Assembly: GCF_013408175.1 (NCBI RefSeq)
Contig: NZ_JACBYW010000005.1
Span: 186,001-250,000 of the forward strand
Source: Actinopolyspora biskrensis
GTDB taxonomy: Bacteria > Actinomycetota > Actinomycetes > Mycobacteriales > Pseudonocardiaceae
Reading direction: 5' to 3'
DNA: 64,000 nucleotides
Shown here: piece by piece, positions 49,949 to 63,383 of the stretch
Position numbering within the stretch: position 1 is the stretch's first letter
Layout: each line of letters begins with the position of its first letter
The notes under the pieces: generated by a model
Database searches by the model: none
What the model was told of the DNA's origin: nothing
What the model saw: only the letters and a program-made list of their open reading frames with translations
Made by a program: the position numbers and the translations under genes

Positions 49949-51259
49949 GTGACCACTGAGAACGCCGCACACGCCACCCGCTCACGTTCGGGACGAGCGG
50001 GGGACAGCGCCGAGGCCGAGCGTTTGGCCGCTGTCGAGCACTACAGCATCCTGGACACTCCTCCGGAGGGGGCCTTCGACCGCATAGCCGCGCTGGCCGC
50101 GCGGTGGCTGGACGCACCCTTCGCGACGGTCTCGTTCGTGGATGCCGACCGGGTCTGGTTCAAGGCCGTGTACGGCTCGGAGGGGATCTCCCAGATCAGC
50201 CGCGATCACGGGCTCTCGTCCTCCGCGATCCTGGACGACGAGCCGTGCGTGATCCGGGACGCCCTGCCCGGCCCGCAGGGGGTGGGGACCTCACCGGTGC
50301 CCGGCGAGCAGGACGTCCGGTCCTACGCCGCCGCGCCGATCATCTCCCCCGAGGGGCATCGCCTGGGAACGGTCGACGTGTTCGACACCCGGCACCGTCA
50401 GTTCCAGGACTCCGCGCTGTCCACCCTGGCCGATCTGGCGGCGGTGGCCATGGACACGCTGGAGTTACGGCTGTCGACGCTGAGGACGTTGCGACACGAA
50501 CGCCAGTTGCGCAAACAGCTCGAGGGCTTCGCCTCGACGCTGCAGCGGACGCTGTTGCCCCCGTCCCTGCCCACCGTGCCGGGGCTGCAGCTGTCCTGCC
50601 ACTACCACACGGCCGACCCCGGTGAGGTGACCGGGGACTTCTACGACGTGTTCGCGCTCGCCGACGGCCGATGGGCCTTCTTCCTCGGCGACGTATCGGG
50701 GCACGGTGCCCCGGCTGCCACGGTGGCCTCGTTGACCCGCTACACCCTGCGGGCCGCCGCGATGCACAGCTCCGATCCCACCGACGTGCTCGAAGAGCTG
50801 AACACCGTGCTGCTGCACGACCCCAACGTCTCCCACTCGGCCACGGTGCTCTTCGGTGTTCTCGCGCCCGATTCGGAAGGGGGCTTCGACATCGTCCTCG
50901 CCGGTGGGGGACACCCCCCTGCGTTGTGGTTGCGTCCCGGATCCGGCAACGGTCCCGGTGTCGAGGAGGTGTGGCCGGAGGGCGGGATGCTCGTCGGGGC
51001 GCTGCCCGACGCGTCGTTCGCCACTCGCCGGCTGCGGTTGCGGCCCGGTCAGACCCTGCTGCTCTACACCGACGGCCTCACCGAGGCCCGTCCCGGCGGG
51101 GACATCTACGGTGCGGAACGGTTGACGGAGTTCCTCACCAGGCACACCGAAGCCGGTGCCACCGCGCTGGTCGGTGAGCTCGACGCGCTGATCGCGGAAC
51201 TCGGGTCCGCGGTCACCGACGACGTGGCGTTGCTGGCGATGAGCGTGCCCCGCGAGTGA
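49949..51259 (+). CDS. GAF-SpoIIE (PP2C) serine phosphatase
   Basis: 436 residues. A GAF domain (about 25-175: HYSILDTPPEGAFDRIAALA, FATVSFVDADRVWFKAVYG, SYAAAPIISPEGHRLGTVDV) is joined by a coiled linker (RTLRHERQLRKQLEGFASTL) to a SpoIIE/RsbU-type phosphatase (GDFYDVFALADGRWAFFLGD, LLLYTDGLTEARPG, TDDVALLAM) with the metal aspartates in place. It would dephosphorylate an anti-anti-sigma factor, turning on a sigma factor. The RsbW-like kinase and STAS genes are next door. GTG start after GGAAAGG. Confidence 0.92.
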   Translation: MTTENAAHATRSRSGRAGDSAEAERLAAVEHYSILDTPPEGAFDRIAALAARWLDAPFATVSFVDADRVWFKAVYGSEGISQISRDHGLSSSAILDDEPCVIRDALPGPQGVGTSPVPGEQDVRSYAAAPIISPEGHRLGTVDVFDTRHRQFQDSALSTLADLAAVAMDTLELRLSTLRTLRHERQLRKQLEGFASTLQRTLLPPSLPTVPGLQLSCHYHTADPGEVTGDFYDVFALADGRWAFFLGDVSGHGAPAATVASLTRYTLRAAAMHSSDPTDVLEELNTVLLHDPNVSHSATVLFGVLAPDSEGGFDIVLAGGGHPPALWLRPGSGNGPGVEEVWPEGGMLVGALPDASFATRRLRLRPGQTLLLYTDGLTEARPGGDIYGAERLTEFLTRHTEAGATALVGELDALIAELGSAVTDDVALLAMSVPRE

Positions 51260-51322
51260 GCCAGCGCGTGAGATACGCGGCCACGGCGGGTACTCGTCTC
51301 GGTGCCGGACGGCGTGGAATCC

Positions 51323-51772
51323 TCATGCCTCCGGGACCGGGTCCTGGGCCGGAGTCCAGCTCATCCGCACCGTGGTGCCTTCACCGCCGGTGAGGACCTC
51401 GGCGTGCTCGGCCAGGCTGCGCAGCAGTATCAGCCCGCGCCCGCCGAGGTCCCGGCGTTGCTCCGACTCCGGACACCAGCGCCCGTAGTCGGTCACGGTC
51501 ACTTCGACCCGCGTGGGCTCGGGCAGCAGGCGTGCCTCCAGATCCAACACACCGCTGCCGTCCGGGTAGGCGTGCGCGACCACGTTGGCCAATGCCTCGT
51601 AGCTCGCCAGCATCAGCACTTCAACCTGCTCCGCGTCCAAACCGACCGTTCCGGCCCATTCGGCGAGCGCGTTGCGCAACGGGGGAAGCCGCTCGGGAGC
51701 GGCGGGGACGTCCCGGTAGCACAACTCGGAGTCGGGGTCACCGCGAGCAGAGGGTGGGCGGGCGGTCATCAT
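51323..51772 (-). CDS. RsbW-like anti-sigma factor / serine kinase (HATPase_c_2)
   Basis: 149 residues, a single GHKL ATPase domain. The N box is SYEALANVVAHAYPD and the G1 box GRGLILLRSLAEHAEV. Such proteins bind a sigma factor and phosphorylate the STAS partner. Convergent with the phosphatase gene and upstream neighbour of the STAS gene on the same strand (120 nt apart). No sigma factor gene is in the window. Confidence 0.87.
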   Translation of the reverse strand: MMTARPPSARGDPDSELCYRDVPAAPERLPPLRNALAEWAGTVGLDAEQVEVLMLASYEALANVVAHAYPDGSGVLDLEARLLPEPTRVEVTVTDYGRWCPESEQRRDLGGRGLILLRSLAEHAEVLTGGEGTTVRMSWTPAQDPVPEA

Positions 51773-51893
51773 TCGTACTCACTCGGTCCTCGTGCGATTC
51801 GGAGGTCGGACTCCCGTCCGGGTTACCACACGGGGACGTTCTTCTATGCCCGGCGGCGTCCCTCGTGCGGGTGTGCCGCCGTGGCGGTCGTAC

Positions 51894-52292
51894 TCACCGG
51901 TCCGCGGACAGAGCCTCCTCCCGGGAGGAGTACACGGCGATCTTGCGGTCCAGAGCGGTGACCCGTAGCGGTCGTGCGGTCGCGCTGTTGCCGGCCACGA
52001 CGCGCAGGGAGGTGCTTTCCCCGGCCTGCTGGTACGCCGCGACCAGTGCCGACAGTCCCGCCGAGGCGAAGAAGTCGACGTGCTCCAGGTCGACCACCAG
52101 CACAGGGGGGCGGTGCTCCTCCAACGTGGAGGTCAGCTTCCCCTGGACCCGCGGAGCGGTCACCATGTCGACCTCTCCGGTGATCACCAGCACAGCGGTC
52201 CGCCCGTGCCACTGAAGGGACGTGCTTACCTTCTCGGCCCCTTCCACCGACGCGGGGTCGTCCGTACGGGTAGGTGTATCGAACATAGCCAC
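51894..52292 (-). CDS. STAS-domain anti-anti-sigma factor
   Basis: About 132 residues. STSLQWHGRTAVLVITGEVD and VLVVDLEHVDFFASAGLSAL are the STAS core; the serine of FASAGL is the site expected to be phosphorylated by the neighbouring kinase and cleared by the SpoIIE phosphatase. GTG 52292 (GAGGG 7 nt upstream) or ATG 52286 is the likely start; the longer frame adds a cysteine-rich leader unlike the family. Confidence 0.87.
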   Translation of the reverse strand: MAMFDTPTRTDDPASVEGAEKVSTSLQWHGRTAVLVITGEVDMVTAPRVQGKLTSTLEEHRPPVLVVDLEHVDFFASAGLSALVAAYQQAGESTSLRVVAGNSATARPLRVTALDRKIAVYSSREEALSADR

Positions 52293-52343
52293 AACACGAC
52301 CCTCGCATACTGGCAAGAAGTAGCAAAACAGTAACGATTCCAT

Positions 52344-55229: not shown

Positions 55230-55659
55230 GCGGCGTGCGAGCCCGACCACGGATCTCCTCGTACCCGTTACGCCGTCTTCTCACGAAGGAAGGGCTCCAG
55301 AACAGCACAGGGCAGTATGTCGTTTGTCCCGTTCTCGGCGACGACTCGGCCACACTGGATCAACACCCATCGCCCAGTCGGTCTGGGAGCTGCGGCGACA
55401 CGTCGCAGCTAAAGGGTGGGGCGGGAATGTTTTGCGTTAGTCAGGGCTTTTCGAGTGAGCAAAGACGGAGCCAACGATCACAATGCTGTCCCACGACTGA
55501 CCCGCACTGTCACCTTCGAGTCGCCCGCTGGCGACCTCGAGGGGACTGTCGACACTGCTCCCGGGACGGGACAACATCACTCCGTGTAGACGAAGGTCGT
55601 GACAGAAGCTCGGTGGGATTTCTGGCCTCTGTCACGACCTTCGTGGGGTCACCCCGGGG
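55230..55659. other. Gene-free stretch with a 16-bp perfect inverted repeat
   Basis: About 430 nt with no recognisable coding sequence. It ends with the hairpin at 55590-55644. Confidence 0.5.
55590..55644 (-). terminator. 16-bp perfect inverted repeat after the bacteriocin-like pair
   Basis: ACGAAGGTCGTGACAG (55590-55605) and its exact reverse complement (55629-55644) flank a 23-nt loop, 16 nt past the end of the small membrane protein gene. A terminator is the simplest reading; no T run follows. Confidence 0.5.
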
Positions 55660-55863
55660 CTATCTGCCGTTCGATCTCGACGTCGATGGACGCCAGTACA
55701 GCACCCCCGCTGCGAAAGCCACGGTAAGGCACGCGAGTATCCCGAGACCCCAGAAGCTGCTCTGCTCGCCCGCGTGGAACAGCGATGGGAGCTGCAAGAT
55801 CACTGCGGCAGCCGACACGGCCATCCCGACCAGGCTGACCACGAACAGCCACGTTTCTTTCAT
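55660..55863 (-). CDS. Small two-TM membrane protein, possible immunity partner
   Basis: 67 residues. Two hydrophobic helices, WLFVVSLVGMAVSAAAVILQ and FWGLGILACLTVAFAAGVLY, joined by a short loop and closed by a basic tail (WRPSTSRSNGR). The ATG at 55863 follows GGTGAG and lies only 10 nt after the stop of the cysteine-rich precursor gene, so the two are almost certainly translated together. Position and size are those of a bacteriocin immunity or export helper, but this is inference from context only. Confidence 0.65.
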   Translation of the reverse strand: MKETWLFVVSLVGMAVSAAAVILQLPSLFHAGEQSSFWGLGILACLTVAFAAGVLYWRPSTSRSNGR

Positions 55864-55873
55864 TGTTCTCACC

Positions 55874-56674
55874 TTAACCGAAGCAGCTGGCGACAGCGGT
55901 GACCGACGCGCTACCGACGGTGGCGTAGGCGCCGATGCACGCGACACACACCCCCGTGCCTACCCCGGGAGTCGCGCACGCACCCGTGCAGGCACTCACG
56001 ATGAGATATCCGGTGGCGCCACTCACGCCAAGTACTGCCGCGACGCAGGCGGCCGTGCTCCCGGCCCCCATCGCAGTCATGGAGTCAGAACTACCAGTGC
56101 CGCTGCCCGCTCCCTGCCGCAGCTGGTCGTCTGTCATGTACGGCTGATCCGTGTCGTTGCTGTTCACGAGAACGCCGTCGGTGAAACTCGTGATGTTGAA
56201 GTTCCCGGATTCGTTCTCACTGATGAGCGTCTCGCTGTACTGGACGATGTCTCCGCTCTCGTCGAAGAGAACCGTGAGATTGCTGACCAGACTGTAGTCC
56301 CCGCCGACGGGAATCGTCACCGACGTGGACGTGGTTTCCTCGGAGTCCACTGTATAGACCTTGGCCTGACCCCGGGACAGCGCACTTTGTGGGGCCTGAA
56401 CAGAGATCTCGCCGTTTTTCACGGCCTCGAAGGCCGTGCCCGTCAGGTCCCGTGCGTCCTGGCCCTCGACCAGTGTCATCTCGGTCGTCGACTCTGCCGA
56501 GGAACCCTGGGCCGAGCAGGAGCTACCCGCATCGCGAGCAGCCGTGGAGGCAGACCTCGGGGCCTCCTGAGTCGCCGCCATGGTAGGTGTCGATGTCATA
56601 CCTCCCACTACGAGTGCCAGCGCCAAGGGAGCAACTGCCATCACCGGCTTCCGGAACTTCGTCGTCGTTAAAAT
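55874..56674 (-). CDS. Secreted cysteine-rich precursor, halocin C8-like C terminus
   Basis: 266 residues if started at ATT 56674. The N terminus is a good signal peptide (TTTKFRKPVMAVAPLALALV, then a TMA cleavage site). A middle pro-region (about 35-205) is Ser/Thr/Glu-rich with beta-type stretches such as TSVTIPVGGDYSLVSNLTVL. The last 58 residues are hydrophobic, Gly/Ala-rich and hold six cysteines (210, 229, 233, 243, 246, 264), as in YLIVSACTGACATPGVG. This layout, a long pro-part and a cysteine-rich hydrophobic end peptide, is that of halocin C8-like bacteriocin precursors. GGGAG stands 6 nt before ATT; the GTG at 56644 has no ribosome-binding site and would cut off the basic n-region. 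Confidence 0.65.
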   Translation of the reverse strand: MLTTTKFRKPVMAVAPLALALVVGGMTSTPTMAATQEAPRSASTAARDAGSSCSAQGSSAESTTEMTLVEGQDARDLTGTAFEAVKNGEISVQAPQSALSRGQAKVYTVDSEETTSTSVTIPVGGDYSLVSNLTVLFDESGDIVQYSETLISENESGNFNITSFTDGVLVNSNDTDQPYMTDDQLRQGAGSGTGSSDSMTAMGAGSTAACVAAVLGVSGATGYLIVSACTGACATPGVGTGVCVACIGAYATVGSASVTAVASCFG

Positions 56675-57634
56675 GTGGTTCTCCCTATTTCCAACTGCGT
56701 TGGTGAATTGCGGAAACTCTGAGCACCGTTGAGCATCGGTTAGCGAGAGCTAGCCGAAAAAGTCGGTGTCAAGGGGGGCTACGTCACGGCGTACGTGCAT
56801 GACACGCAGACACGATCCTTAACGTGACCTTGAGTCTTGTGGCGTGAGCGCAACCTTCGTGAGAGATTTTCGCATATTGAACAGCATGGCGCTGTACTGC
56901 AAACAGGTGAAAAACTTTAATACCAAAAAATAGCATTCCTATAACGAATGTAGGATACTTGTAACGGGCACGCTCGCCACTCCCATGGGACTTACCCGGA
57001 ATACGGTTCGAATCCGCCACGGGACGACGCCGGGTGATCAGCCGTCCCGCCGTCCGATGTCTCGCCGTCGCCACCGACGGGTGGTACCCGCACGTCTGCG
57101 CCACTTCCGGTTGACCCGCGCAGGCGAAGACGGGGCCATCGAGGCCAATTTGATGAATCTGTCGGACCGCGAATACCGTCGTAGTCTGCAGCGATACTTC
57201 AATCCCTCCAAAAACGGCACTCACAGGCGCTTGGACGAGCTCGGTTTGGCACAGGAGCCCGGAACCAGGTCCTGGCGAGATCGCCTCCAGGATCGCTGAG
57301 GCGGACCGTCACGAGCTAACCGGTCAGACCACGGTGTCTGTGCTCGGTTACGACATCGAAGATACCGAGAGAACCTCCCAGACCGAGAGAGCTAAGTCAG
57401 CCTCCCCAGAGCACTCCGGCTTTCCCACCTCAACACTCCACGCCGAAGATGTCCCGCCGCTGTAGTCGCTACACCGATGCCGAGGTCGACAGCTACCAGC
57501 TCGAGCAGCTACGTAGCTGTACCCCTACCTCTGTTCGGACAACTCACGCACGACATACGCGAATAACGACACCCAGGATCCCGTCACTGCCTTGGCCTCT
57601 TCCGTAGGTCGTCCTTCCCGGCTGTGATGCTCGG
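56675..57634. other. 960-nt stretch, AT-rich, no firm gene
   Basis: It includes the least GC-rich part of the window (about 56,860-56,960) and must hold the promoter of the cysteine-rich precursor. A plus-strand frame at 56985-57299 (104 codons, Arg-rich start, then SDREYRRSLQRYFNPSKNGT) is not recognised and may be a gene remnant. Confidence 0.45.
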
Positions 57635-59296
57635 ATGGCCGTCTCAGCGTCGCGTGTGGACCGTTCCGGTGTTGTGTCTCCGCTGCGTCTTCGGGGTTTT
57701 CGGTGGTTGTTCGTGGGGCGGGTGTTGTCGTCGTTCGGGGACAGCTTGGTGCCGTTGACGGTGGCGTTCGCGGCGTTGGACCTGACCGGTTCGGCGGTGG
57801 GGTTGGGTGGGGTGCTGCTGGCGAATCGGTTGCCGGTGGTGGTGGCGACGCTGGCCGGTGGAGTACTGGGGGATGTGTTCGACCGGCGATGGGTGATGGT
57901 GGTCGCCGATGTGTGGCGCATGGCCTCCCAGGCGGTGTGCGGGACCCTGCTGCTGGCCGGTCAACTTCCGCTGTGGGCGCTGATCGTGCTGCAGGGCTGC
58001 GCGGGTGTGGGCACGGCGCTGTTCACCCCGGCTTCCGCGGGGCTGGTTCCCGCGCTGGTGCCGGAGAACCTTCTGCGGCAGGCCAACGCGTTGTTGGGGC
58101 TGGCGGCCAATGTGAACAAGGTGGCCGCGATCAGCGTGGCCGGCCTGCTGGTGGCCGGGCTGGGATCCGGTTGGGCGTTGCTGGTCGATGCGGCCACGTT
58201 CGCGGCCAGCGCGCTCTCGTTGCTGCTGATCGGCTCGGTGACCGCGCTCGCCGGGAAGTGGGAACGCCGGGGCGTGCTGGCCGAGGTGTGGGGCGGTTGG
58301 CGGCACGTGGTGGTCACGCCGTGGCTGCGGACCCTGCTGGGCTACACCGCGCTGCTGCAGGCGCTGGTGCTCGGCCCGCACATGCTGCTGGGGCCGTTGC
58401 TGGCGCGGCAGCTTTACCACGGTGCCGCCTCGTGGGCGGTGATCGGAGCCATCCAGGCGCTCGGTTCGATCGCAGGCAGCGCGCTGGCGCTGCGGCTGCG
58501 CCCATCACGCCCGCTCGTGGCGGCCGTGGCCGCCTCGCTGCTGATGCTGCCGTACCTGGCGTTGTCGGTGCAGAACCAGGTGTACATCGCGGCGGCGAAG
58601 CTGGTCACCAAGATCGGTGATGGTCAGTTGGCCTGGGTCGCCGCCGATCGGGCGGTGACGGCCGCGATGCGGGCCGAAGCGCCCACGTTGGGGGCGGGTG
58701 CGGCGTATCAGGTGGCGTGCGCGTTCCTGAAGCTCGACCAGCTCGATCGGGCCGAGCACGTGGCCATGACCACTGCCGAGCAGTTGGACGACGACGGTCC
58801 GCTGGGGGTGTCGTATCAGGGCGCGCTGTTCTTGATCGGCTCGGTCATCGCCGGACGTCGCAGCGATCACGCTGAGGCCACCGACCGGTTGCGGCGGGCG
58901 CAGTACCTGGCCGATGCGCTGGGCGAGGACGGCAACTACGGCTGGACCGCCTTCGGGCCGACCAATGTGGCCATCCACCGGGTGTCGGCCGCGGCCGAGC
59001 TGGGGGATGCCAAGCACGCGATCACGCTGGCCGAGGGCATCGACACCCAGGGGCTGCCGGAGGGGTTGAGCAGCCGGAGGGCGCAGGTGCACATCGACAC
59101 GGCGTGGGCGTATTCGCAGCACCGCGAGGACGCTGCGGTGGTGGTGAACCTGATGGAGGCCGAGCGGGTGGCGCCGCAGGCGTTGCACTACAACGTGATC
59201 GTGCGGGAGCTGCTGCGCGAGATGCTCAAGCGGGAGCGTCGGTCGGCCACGCCGGGGCTGCGGCCGTTGGCGCAGCGGGCGGGGGTGCTGTCATGA
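57635..59296 (+). CDS. Chimera: MFS transporter N-part fused to TPR-regulator C-part
   Basis: 553 residues. Residues 1 to about 312 are an MFS exporter (FRWLFVGRVLSSFGDSLVPL, GGVLGDVFDRRWVMVVADVW) with only 8-9 transmembrane helices. From about residue 313 the sequence is the C-terminal sensor part of the helix-turn-helix/TPR regulators common in Pseudonocardiales (KIGDGQLAWVAADRAVTAAM, TAFGPTNVAIHRVSAAAELG, NLMEAERVAPQALHYNVIVR), lacking its HTH domain. The junction at about 58565-58585 is in frame. The flavoprotein gene that normally follows such regulators is in place and overlaps by ATGA. Probably a deletion fusion; activity of either half is doubtful. Confidence 0.8.
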   Translation: MAVSASRVDRSGVVSPLRLRGFRWLFVGRVLSSFGDSLVPLTVAFAALDLTGSAVGLGGVLLANRLPVVVATLAGGVLGDVFDRRWVMVVADVWRMASQAVCGTLLLAGQLPLWALIVLQGCAGVGTALFTPASAGLVPALVPENLLRQANALLGLAANVNKVAAISVAGLLVAGLGSGWALLVDAATFAASALSLLLIGSVTALAGKWERRGVLAEVWGGWRHVVVTPWLRTLLGYTALLQALVLGPHMLLGPLLARQLYHGAASWAVIGAIQALGSIAGSALALRLRPSRPLVAAVAASLLMLPYLALSVQNQVYIAAAKLVTKIGDGQLAWVAADRAVTAAMRAEAPTLGAGAAYQVACAFLKLDQLDRAEHVAMTTAEQLDDDGPLGVSYQGALFLIGSVIAGRRSDHAEATDRLRRAQYLADALGEDGNYGWTAFGPTNVAIHRVSAAAELGDAKHAITLAEGIDTQGLPEGLSSRRAQVHIDTAWAYSQHREDAAVVVNLMEAERVAPQALHYNVIVRELLREMLKRERRSATPGLRPLAQRAGVLS

Positions 59297-59834: not shown

Positions 59835-61276
59835 CCTACGAGTGGCGCCAGCCCCGGAGGGCTGGCGCCACCGGAGGGGACCACTCGACCTCGACTTCGT
59901 TGAGCCGGTTGTGATCCTCGCCAGCCCCGAAGGGCTGGCGCCACGGCTACGCCCCGGCCACGATCGTCGGCGCGGACTGGTTGCGATCCTCGCCAGCCCC
60001 GAAGGGCTGGCGCCACGTGTACGGGTCGATCCCGTGGGCGGCGCACCACCCGTCGTTGCGATCCTCGCCAGCCCCGAAGGGCTGGCGCCACGCGACATCT
60101 CGTCAATCCGGGAGGATGTCACGGAGTTGTTGCGATCCTCGCCAGCCCCGGAGGGCTGGCGCCACGCTGCTCGAGCTGGACCAGCCGGTGGGTAAACGCG
60201 GCGTTGCGATCCTCGCCAGCCCCGGAGGGCTGGCGCCACCAGCCGCAGCGAGGCGTCCTTTTCCCACTGGGCGTGGTTGCGATCCTCGCCAGCCCCGGAG
60301 GGCTGGCGCCACCCCGGCATCCCAGTGGAAACCCAGCTCACCGACAAGGTTGCGATCCTCGCCAGCCCCGGAGGGCTGGCGCCACCAGCAGCAATCCACC
60401 CAGGTCGACATGGCCGGGCCCGGTTGCGATCCTCGCCAGCCCCGGAGGGCTGGCGCCACCCGGAGCCAGGACGTTGGCCACGTTCGGATTCGCGAGGTTG
60501 CGATCCTCGCCAGCCCCGGAGGGCTGGCGCCACGACCGCGCGGTGCCAGGAGGCCGGGAGTTCCGCGTCGGGTTGCGATCCTCGCCAGCCCCGGAGGGCT
60601 GGCGCCACCTTTCTCTCCTCGCCCCACGACCGCACCGACACACGCGGTTGCGATCCTCGCCAGCCCCGGAGGGCTGGCGCCACTGCACACCACGATCGAC
60701 CTGGTCGCCGAGCATCACAACGTTGCGATCCTCGCCAGCCCCGGAGGGCTGGCGCCACTCGTCGGGGTCGACGGGTACCTTTTCGCCGGTTTCGGGTTGC
60801 GATCCTCGCCAGCCCCGGAGGGCTGGCGCCACCTCCGTCGACCTCGACGGAGTTCCCGACGAGCTCGCGGGTTGCGATCCTCGCCAGCCCCGGAGGGCTG
60901 GCGCCACCAGCACGACCAACGCCATTTTTGCGGTAGAACTCCAGTTGCGATCCTCGCCAGCCCCGGAGGGCTGGCGCCACTCAGCATCCGGCCCGGCGGC
61001 GGCCTTCATGCACGACTCGTTGCGATCCTCGCCAGCCCCGGAGGGCTGGCGCCACCATTTCGCCTTTGGCGAGGATGACGCTGGCTTCGGAGTTGCGATC
61101 CTCGCCAGCCCCGGAGGGCTGGCGCCACACCACACCCCGCTGCGCACACCCCCGTCAACATGTGCGTTGCGATCCTCGCCAGCCCCGGAGGGCTGGCGCC
61201 ACCCTACCCGAGGATGCGCCCGCCCCGACAGCGCAAACAGTTGCGATCCTCGCCAGCCCCGGAGGGCTGGCGCCAC
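59835..61276 (-). CRISPR. CRISPR array, 19 full repeats plus one degenerate, type I-C
   Basis: Repeats are 37 nt and start at 59908, 59980, 60055, 60129, 60203, 60276, 60349, 60423, 60497, 60572, 60647, 60722, 60796, 60871, 60944, 61019, 61092, 61166 and 61240; spacers are 35-38 nt, 19 in all. A degenerate repeat (59835-59871) that keeps only the inner palindrome marks the far end. Read on the minus strand the repeat begins GTGGCGCC, holds the perfect stem GCCAGCCC-TCCG-GGGCTGGC and ends GAGGATCGCAAC, which would be the 5' handle of the crRNAs. The three full repeats nearest the degenerate end carry a G-to-A change and the first a further change, so the leader lies on the cas2 side. Confidence 0.97.
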
Positions 61277-61433: not shown

Positions 61434-62738
<1,305 letters not shown>

Positions 62739-62746
<8 letters not shown>

Positions 62747-63383
62747 CCCAGTCCCCCAGGGGTAGTGGTGTGAACAACGAGGCGGAAGGCCGGACGTTCG
62801 CTTCCGGCATGCACCCCGCACGCAACGAGCACCGATCGCATCGCGAGTCGTTGACCGCCTCGGGAACCACTTCGGACCGAAGCATTTCGCGCAGTTCGCT
62901 GACGGTGTCGCGCAGCCGATTCTCGAGCGAGTCGTCGACAGTCACCTCGTAACGTCGTCGGTGCTTGCCCGCGAAGACGATCCCTTTCGGCACGGCGGTG
63001 TCGAACATGCCGCGCAGGCACACGGCCTGCGCGGCGACCTGCAGATCCGCCGCGCTTCCGGAGCGGTAGCTGCCGGACTTGTGCTCGACCGGAATCGGCC
63101 CCTCGGCTCCGAATTCCACCACGTCGCAGATGCCGTGAATCCCGAGGAGGTCGTCCCACACCGGAAGCGCGGTCCAACGTCGCTGCCCGGACCTGCTGGT
63201 TCTCGAATCACCGCGGTCGACGGCCTCGTGGGCGATCTGCCCTCGAGCCGTCTCCGCGCTGTCCTCGAAGTAGCGTTCGAGGTGAATCAGAGCGGCCTGC
63301 CTGGGGCAGTAGGCGTAGTGCTCGATCGCGGCGATCGGAATGCTCGACCACGCGGGTTCGTCCGCTCTTTCCGCCGGGTACAT
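62739..63383 (-). CDS. cas4: CRISPR-associated exonuclease Cas4
   Basis: 214 residues. RecB-like nuclease with PVEHKSG and the preceding CDVVEFG, GQIAHEAVD and QVAAQAVCLRGMF, and four cysteines for an iron-sulfur cluster (CPRQ near the N terminus and CDRCSLRAGC near the end). It trims pre-spacers and helps choose the PAM. Stop-start contact with cas7 upstream and overlap with cas1 downstream. Confidence 0.95.

Follow-up and report, generated by a model that had tools for sequence, protein, structure and literature searches.

Two adjacent genes of Actinopolyspora biskrensis, one for an apparently secreted protein with a hydrophobic, cysteine-bearing end and one for a small protein with two transmembrane (TM) segments, raise the question of whether they form a toxin and its antidote or a surface protein and its helper. 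They lie on the minus strand of the window, by which the whole stretch of 64,000 nucleotides analysed here is meant. The reading favoured below, with a probability of roughly 0.7, is that the pair encodes a bacteriocin and an immunity protein of a family outside Pfam and NCBIfam. An earlier note on the locus had proposed a halocin C8-like bacteriocin precursor whose partner would be either an immunity protein or an export helper, and, as an alternative, an adhesin-like protein.

Layout of the locus

The features of the locus are as follows.

55874..56674, minus strand: precursor gene, 266 aa, start ATT at 56672-56674, stop at 55874-55876 (from translation and homologues)
56681..56685, minus strand: Shine-Dalgarno sequence GGGAG of the precursor, 6 nt ahead of the ATT (from alignment)
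56576..56674, minus strand: predicted signal peptide, about residues 1-33 (read from the sequence; pN/pS 0.41 over residues 2-33)
56060..56575, minus strand: pro-region, about residues 34-205 (from charge count, pN/pS by segment and a weak AF2 model)
55877..56059, minus strand: putative mature peptide, about residues 206-266 (six Cys, uncharged, GRAVY 1.37, pN/pS 0.19)
55660..55863, minus strand: two-TM protein gene, putative immunity gene, 67 aa, with the Shine-Dalgarno sequence AAGGTGAG overlapping the precursor stop
55590..55644, no strand assigned: 20-bp inverted repeat, 95% complementary, 3' of the two-TM gene; relatives keep part of it
56675..56972, minus strand: conserved upstream DNA (nucleotide similarity with other Actinopolyspora genomes)

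Translation reproduced exactly the two frames described earlier (from 56674 to the stop at 55874-55876, and from 55863 to 55660 for 67 aa), with 10 nt between the precursor stop and the two-TM ATG; a script count returned the same six-cysteine spacing, C-18-C-3-C-9-C-2-C-17-C, and two peaks in a 19-residue hydropathy profile bore out the two TM segments. The precursor, its partner, the approximately 300 bp of upstream DNA and the hairpin together make up the cassette. Full-length identity to the precursors of three further Actinopolyspora genomes is 81-84%, and nowhere is constraint stronger than in the cysteine segment, so the layout is not a chance observation.

Start codon and flanking DNA

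The start of the precursor had been placed at position 56674, which comparison supports, but the codon there is ATT, and not ATG, GTG or TTG. In the alignment the same codon is found in A. mortivallis (G006), and ATC takes its place in two other Actinopolyspora genomes (G002 and G008). A start at ATT or ATC in Actinopolyspora is likely from these alignments for three reasons: a Shine-Dalgarno sequence stands at the identical distance in four of four precursor genes of the genus (GGGAG, or TGGAG in G008); some 18 nt before the start, an indel of one base puts the two species pairs in different frames, so that coding cannot extend further upstream in all four; and a start at the downstream GTG or ATG codons would lose the positive n-region KFRK, with no conserved ribosome site there as judged by eye. 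AUU serves as the start codon of infC. The Streptomonospora precursor has a TTG behind AAAGGAG at almost the same point, and the Arthrobacter precursor has an in-frame ATG.

Upstream of the start, nucleotide similarity reaches as far as 56965-56972 in three other Actinopolyspora genomes, and the conserved region 56675-56972 is probably promoter and leader; a scan of it gave no match to a sigma-70 type promoter. The inverted repeat at 55590-55644 is perhaps a transcription terminator. It was not among the terminator-like sites of a scan that demands a T-run, and Rfam yielded two sub-threshold hits to this hairpin (E 0.0048 and 0.07), which were taken as chance. A second inverted repeat (55279-55297 and 56846-56864) has its right arm inside the conserved unit.

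Segments of the precursor

The signal peptide consists of the KFRK n-region, a hydrophobic core and a TMA-A end, and reads as Sec type. The pro-region that follows is acidic (25 D/E against 7 K/R over residues 34-205) and consists of a conserved core (81-182) flanked by a variable spacer (34-80) and a variable linker (183-205). Residues 206-266 are Gly/Ala-rich and contain no D, E, K or R at all. Pairwise pN/pS among five whole precursors follows these divisions, with 0.41 for residues 2-33, 0.84 for 34-80, 0.26 for 81-182, 0.69 for 183-205 and 0.19 for 206-266, the lowest of all segments. Two conserved blocks with a free linker between them are the pattern expected if a propeptide gives rise to a processed C-terminal product. 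AF2 modelling of the whole precursor from four sequences had low confidence (mean pLDDT 39); in the pro-core it hints at a helix together with a meander of six strands.

All eight C-terminal segments that were compared, from Actinopolyspora through to a Bacillota plasmid, have six cysteines. The spacing is nearly fixed, except that the gap between the third and fourth cysteine ranges from 7 to 11 and that the first and last loops also vary in one remote relative (L008). Charged residues are absent from five of the eight segments and number four in each of the other three; some of the cysteines are gone from decayed copies such as that of Nocardiopsis (L014). A precursor that is secreted, as judged from its sequence, and that combines a conserved C-terminal peptide with a variable linker has the make-up of the large-precursor bacteriocins, and it probably works like one.

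Family models, halocin C8 and SDP

Neither the whole precursor against Pfam and NCBIfam nor eight members of its family against NCBIfam gave a match at E up to 10. Pfam returned three unrelated weak names for the eight members (DUF359, NQRA_N and BAT2_N, E 0.019 or worse), and the sole NCBIfam name for the C-terminal tail alone was heterocycloanthracin/sonorensin (TIGR03601, E 2.6), whose 8.7 bits lie far short of the cut-off of 35. For the two-TM protein all Pfam and NCBIfam matches were below cut-off (best DUF5924, E 0.031), and a weak PADLOC match (SAVED_TM, E 0.0085) was taken as generic TM similarity. A search of the PDB by sequence gave only Spc24 (E 2.1). By these searches the family is undescribed in Pfam and NCBIfam.

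The likeness to halocin C8 lies in a long exported precursor, a C-terminal cysteine-rich peptide and halophilic producers, and it invites the reading that the precursor is a true member of that family, with the pro-region as the immunity domain and the two-TM protein as a helper. The general layout of a long pro-region ahead of a hydrophobic cysteine-rich peptide is indeed the same, and the host is presumably halophilic as well. The HMM search that had been proposed as a check went against the kinship: TIGR04449 gave no match at E up to 10 with the window protein, its tail or the eight family members, and none in the A. biskrensis genome, with Haloferax volcanii matching as control. A class-wide search with the same model yielded one of 296 genomes (L025, 25.4 bits against a cut-off of 24), and this candidate was dropped because its frames, rich in Ala and Ser, seem to be another gene read out of frame. 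According to the published account, ProC8 is a 283-aa precursor of a 76-aa peptide, is exported by Tat, and carries the immunity function, HalI, in its pro-region (PMC11509114). By comparison, the window peptide has about 58-61 residues and six cysteines, the signal is of Sec type (KFRKPV, by eye with no twin arginine), and a separate two-TM gene stands where halocin C8 has immunity by its pro-region; moreover, it is the two-TM gene that relatives retain, and not the pro-region. Membership in the halocin C8 family is very improbable on this evidence. Within the sources covered by a limited literature search on Actinopolyspora bacteriocins and halocin C8, no description of this gene pair was found.

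The SDP system of Bacillus subtilis offers a second comparison. SdpC and SdpI follow a plan of a Sec-exported precursor, a C-terminal toxin and a separate membrane immunity protein, which is also the plan of the pair described here, and conservation over some 300 bp upstream points to regulation, as would befit a cannibalism or signalling toxin directed at its own colony, with the two-TM protein in self-protection and perhaps as a regulator. There is, however, no sequence match, the peptide here has six cysteines, and no maturation genes of the SdpAB type were seen: at the nucleotide level no neighbour is common to the window and the A. mortivallis copy, so that no SdpA- or SdpB-like genes were seen to travel with the pair. 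The whole precursor lacks a Pfam or NCBIfam match, and the whole-library scans list none to SdpC, for which these libraries may hold no model. An SDP-like toxin is a quite doubtful reading. The yitPOM operon is described as a paralogue of sdpABC (PMC6818787).

Relatives and their distribution

Named relatives of the precursor are those of A. mortivallis (L010, 84% identical), A. xinjiangensis (L011, 81%) and Streptomonospora alba (L012, 73%), and partial relatives occur in Halosaccharopolyspora lacisalsi (L013) and Nocardiopsis sp. JB363 (L014); most of these hosts we take to be halophilic. Whole-genome searches in which every first-look candidate was scored placed the precursor in four of ten Actinopolyspora genomes. 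Searches of the family (8 of 297 genomes) and of the class (profile A2; 4 of 394 genomes) were limited in each genome to the 8 or 6 top-ranking first-look candidates, so that misses are possible in these counts. Five of the eight family genomes are clear cases, namely the four Actinopolyspora and G014; the others comprise a remote relative (G165, L008), a short pro-region remnant that was excluded from the alignments (G068, L007) and a candidate that was dropped because it lies opposite a frame resembling, by eye, a subtilase (G138, L009).

Plasmid records contributed two further relatives, on pAAG24-152 of Arthrobacter agilis (41%) and in Pseudalkalibacillus hwajinpoensis, a diverged copy from the Bacillota (28%), and phage records and viral contigs contributed none. 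The patchy occurrence and the plasmid copies fit horizontal spread. Between the window and the A. mortivallis copy the common nucleotide stretch covers only 55612-56972 (1.4 kb), and the wider region around the cassette is common to G002, G008 and the window. Comparison of the loci at the nucleotide level gave no common exporter, protease, regulator or modifying enzyme, and no tRNA that would point to tRNA-borne integration was found between 45 and 64 kb in the window.

In H. lacisalsi there are two separate broken copies (L024 9253-9863 and L023 9206-9668), one of them with the pro-region and a cut mature part, the other with the mature part and an intact two-TM gene. Genes annotated as a TasA family protein and a signal peptidase I are found about 2 kb away from the Arthrobacter plasmid copy (L015 7715-9417).

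The two-TM gene without its precursor

The two genes do not share the same fate. The two-TM gene is present in all ten Actinopolyspora genomes, as against four for the precursor, and its profile (A4, with 20 candidates per genome scored) matched 11 of 297 family genomes, that is, the ten Actinopolyspora and G014. In the class, where 19 candidates were scored, it matched 5 of 316 genomes, including two new loci (L046 and L047) with no trace of a precursor in the stretch examined around the two-TM gene. All searches taken together gave seven whole pairs (the window, L002, L003, L004, L012, L015 and L017), in each of which the two-TM gene immediately follows the precursor, 13 intact two-TM genes with the precursor deleted or truncated, and four precursor pieces with no recognised partner (L005, L007, L008 and L016). 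For L015, L017 and L019 the partner was identified by alignment and by visual inspection of the frames, and the profile later matched that of L017 as well. The Arthrobacter partner, directly after its precursor, is 30% identical, and since a search of plasmid records with the two-TM protein gave no match, even to this one, it must be too diverged for such a search.

Six of the ten Actinopolyspora genomes (G001, G003, G004, G005, G007 and G009) have no precursor match, and A. mortivallis (G006) carries a second two-TM copy that lacks one. Each of the seven retains an intact two-TM frame and ribosome site together with only about the last 15-60 nt of the 801-nt precursor gene, to which G005 adds nucleotides 646-692. 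Outside the genus, truncated precursors stand beside intact two-TM genes in Halosaccharopolyspora (L006), Nocardiopsis (L014), L018 and L019; in L006, L014 and L018 much of the cysteine segment is kept, in a frame that has no signal peptide. The converse is seen in L008 and L016, which keep the six-cysteine segment with no recognised two-TM partner and have their N-termini missing or in another frame. In window-gene numbering and going by the BLAST boundaries, the retained piece starts at 518 (L018), 613 (L014), 646 (G005), 652 (Halosaccharopolyspora), 672 (L019) and 773-788 (the rest), and these differing boundaries make several separate losses likely. G003, G004, G007 and G009 have flanking DNA in common and may trace to one loss, while G001, G005 and the second G006 copy match them only in the two-TM stretch (14-16.5 kb compared).

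Pairwise pN/pS of the two-TM gene is 0.51 beside a whole precursor (five genes, 10 pairs), 0.52 among the seven in-genus orphans (21 pairs) and 0.73 (6 pairs) among the four orphans outside the genus whose precursors have decayed. A tree of 16 two-TM genes, which left out L015, L017, L046 and L047, gave for terminal branches to orphan copies a synonymous fraction of 0.39, where 0.28 was expected (p 0.004, omega about 0.62). The fraction was 0.51 (omega about 0.38) on terminal branches to genes beside a precursor and 0.32 (p 0.38, omega about 0.83) on internal branches of orphan clades. By these values constraint on the orphan copies persists but is looser; some of each branch may also be older than the loss.

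This retention bears on the roles that had been proposed for the partner. An export helper would not be expected to persist once its cargo is lost, and neither that role nor that of an adhesin partner or of a surface protein's companion predicts survival of the partner in several lineages; immunity does. A small membrane gene that adjoins the precursor and is kept in its absence also agrees with the class of large-precursor secreted bacteriocins with dedicated immunity. Orphan bacteriocin immunity genes of other bacteria are likewise kept without the toxin; they belong to other families, whereas here the two-TM protein has only sub-cut-off matches in Pfam and NCBIfam. Of the two roles suggested earlier, immunity is supported by layout, conservation and, most of all, the 13 orphan loci, and that of export helper is not.

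The orphan pattern is also difficult to square with the adhesin alternative. In its broader form it would make the precursor a hydrophobic structural surface protein, chaplin- or adhesin-like, of mycelial actinomycetes, with the two-TM protein aiding export or anchoring. A secreted protein with a hydrophobic, cysteine-bearing end that is uncharged in five of eight segments would suit such a role, and several of the hosts are, we assume, mycelial. Pfam includes a chaplin model, yet the Pfam scans gave no chaplin or adhesin match; a precursor found in just four of ten genomes of the genus, and also on plasmids of Arthrobacter and the Bacillota, whose hosts are presumably not mycelial, is hard to reconcile with a structural part, as is a partner that is intact at 13 loci lacking a whole precursor. 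We regard a surface protein as unlikely.

A proposed bacteriocin and its immunity protein

Starting from the observed architecture, conservation, adjacency and retention of the partner without the precursor, we infer cleavage, disulfide formation, killing and direct neutralisation in the following course. Sec would export the precursor. Held in solution and inactive by the pro-region, the hydrophobic end with its cysteines would be set free when a protease cleaves the variable linker around residue 205. The freed peptide, uncharged and braced by disulfides, would then enter the membrane of close relatives and depolarise it, and the 67-residue two-TM protein in the producer's own membrane would block it. 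Non-producing relatives would hold the protector gene alone. Several results weigh against this reading: the lack of any family-model match or of an exporter, protease or regulator common to the loci, the looser constraint on orphan copies, the six-cysteine segments with no recognised partner (L008 and L016), the cysteine segments left at L006, L014 and L018, and the possible single loss behind G003, G004, G007 and G009.

A more far-reaching version of the bacteriocin reading is offered only tentatively, and we would sooner bet against it as a whole: in this undescribed family a near-cognate AUU or AUC start, held by selection, might throttle the toxin and so leave the immunity protein, with an AUG start and a Shine-Dalgarno sequence of its own, always in excess, and the immunity gene might have spread free-standing through halophilic actinomycetes as a resistance gene. 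The conserved ATT or ATC start is in any event a testable case of toxin dosing through the choice of start codon. With candidate producers (four of ten) and protector-bearing non-producers (six of ten) in one genus, both roles are directly testable, and if the killing holds true, the pair would represent a new family of disulfide-rich, mostly uncharged bacteriocins whose immunity protein has already been singled out by evolution.

Neighbouring genes in the window

About 3 kb from the cassette lies a CRISPR array with 18 copies of a 22-nt repeat word at a spacing of 73-75; the array, cas2 and cas1 occupy 59980-61261 and 61437-62821. Among 14 stretches checked for arrays, one more was found, at the orphan locus of G009 (L040), with 5 copies less than 3 kb from the two-TM gene. 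The frame at 57635-59293 joins an MFS-type transporter domain (Pfam, residues 13-351 of 553) to an uncovered tail, and its junction near residue 320-330 looks, by eye, like a fusion or deletion. Further away, at 49949-52343, a SpoIIE phosphatase with GAF, a HATPase_c_2 protein and a STAS protein probably form a partner-switching set.
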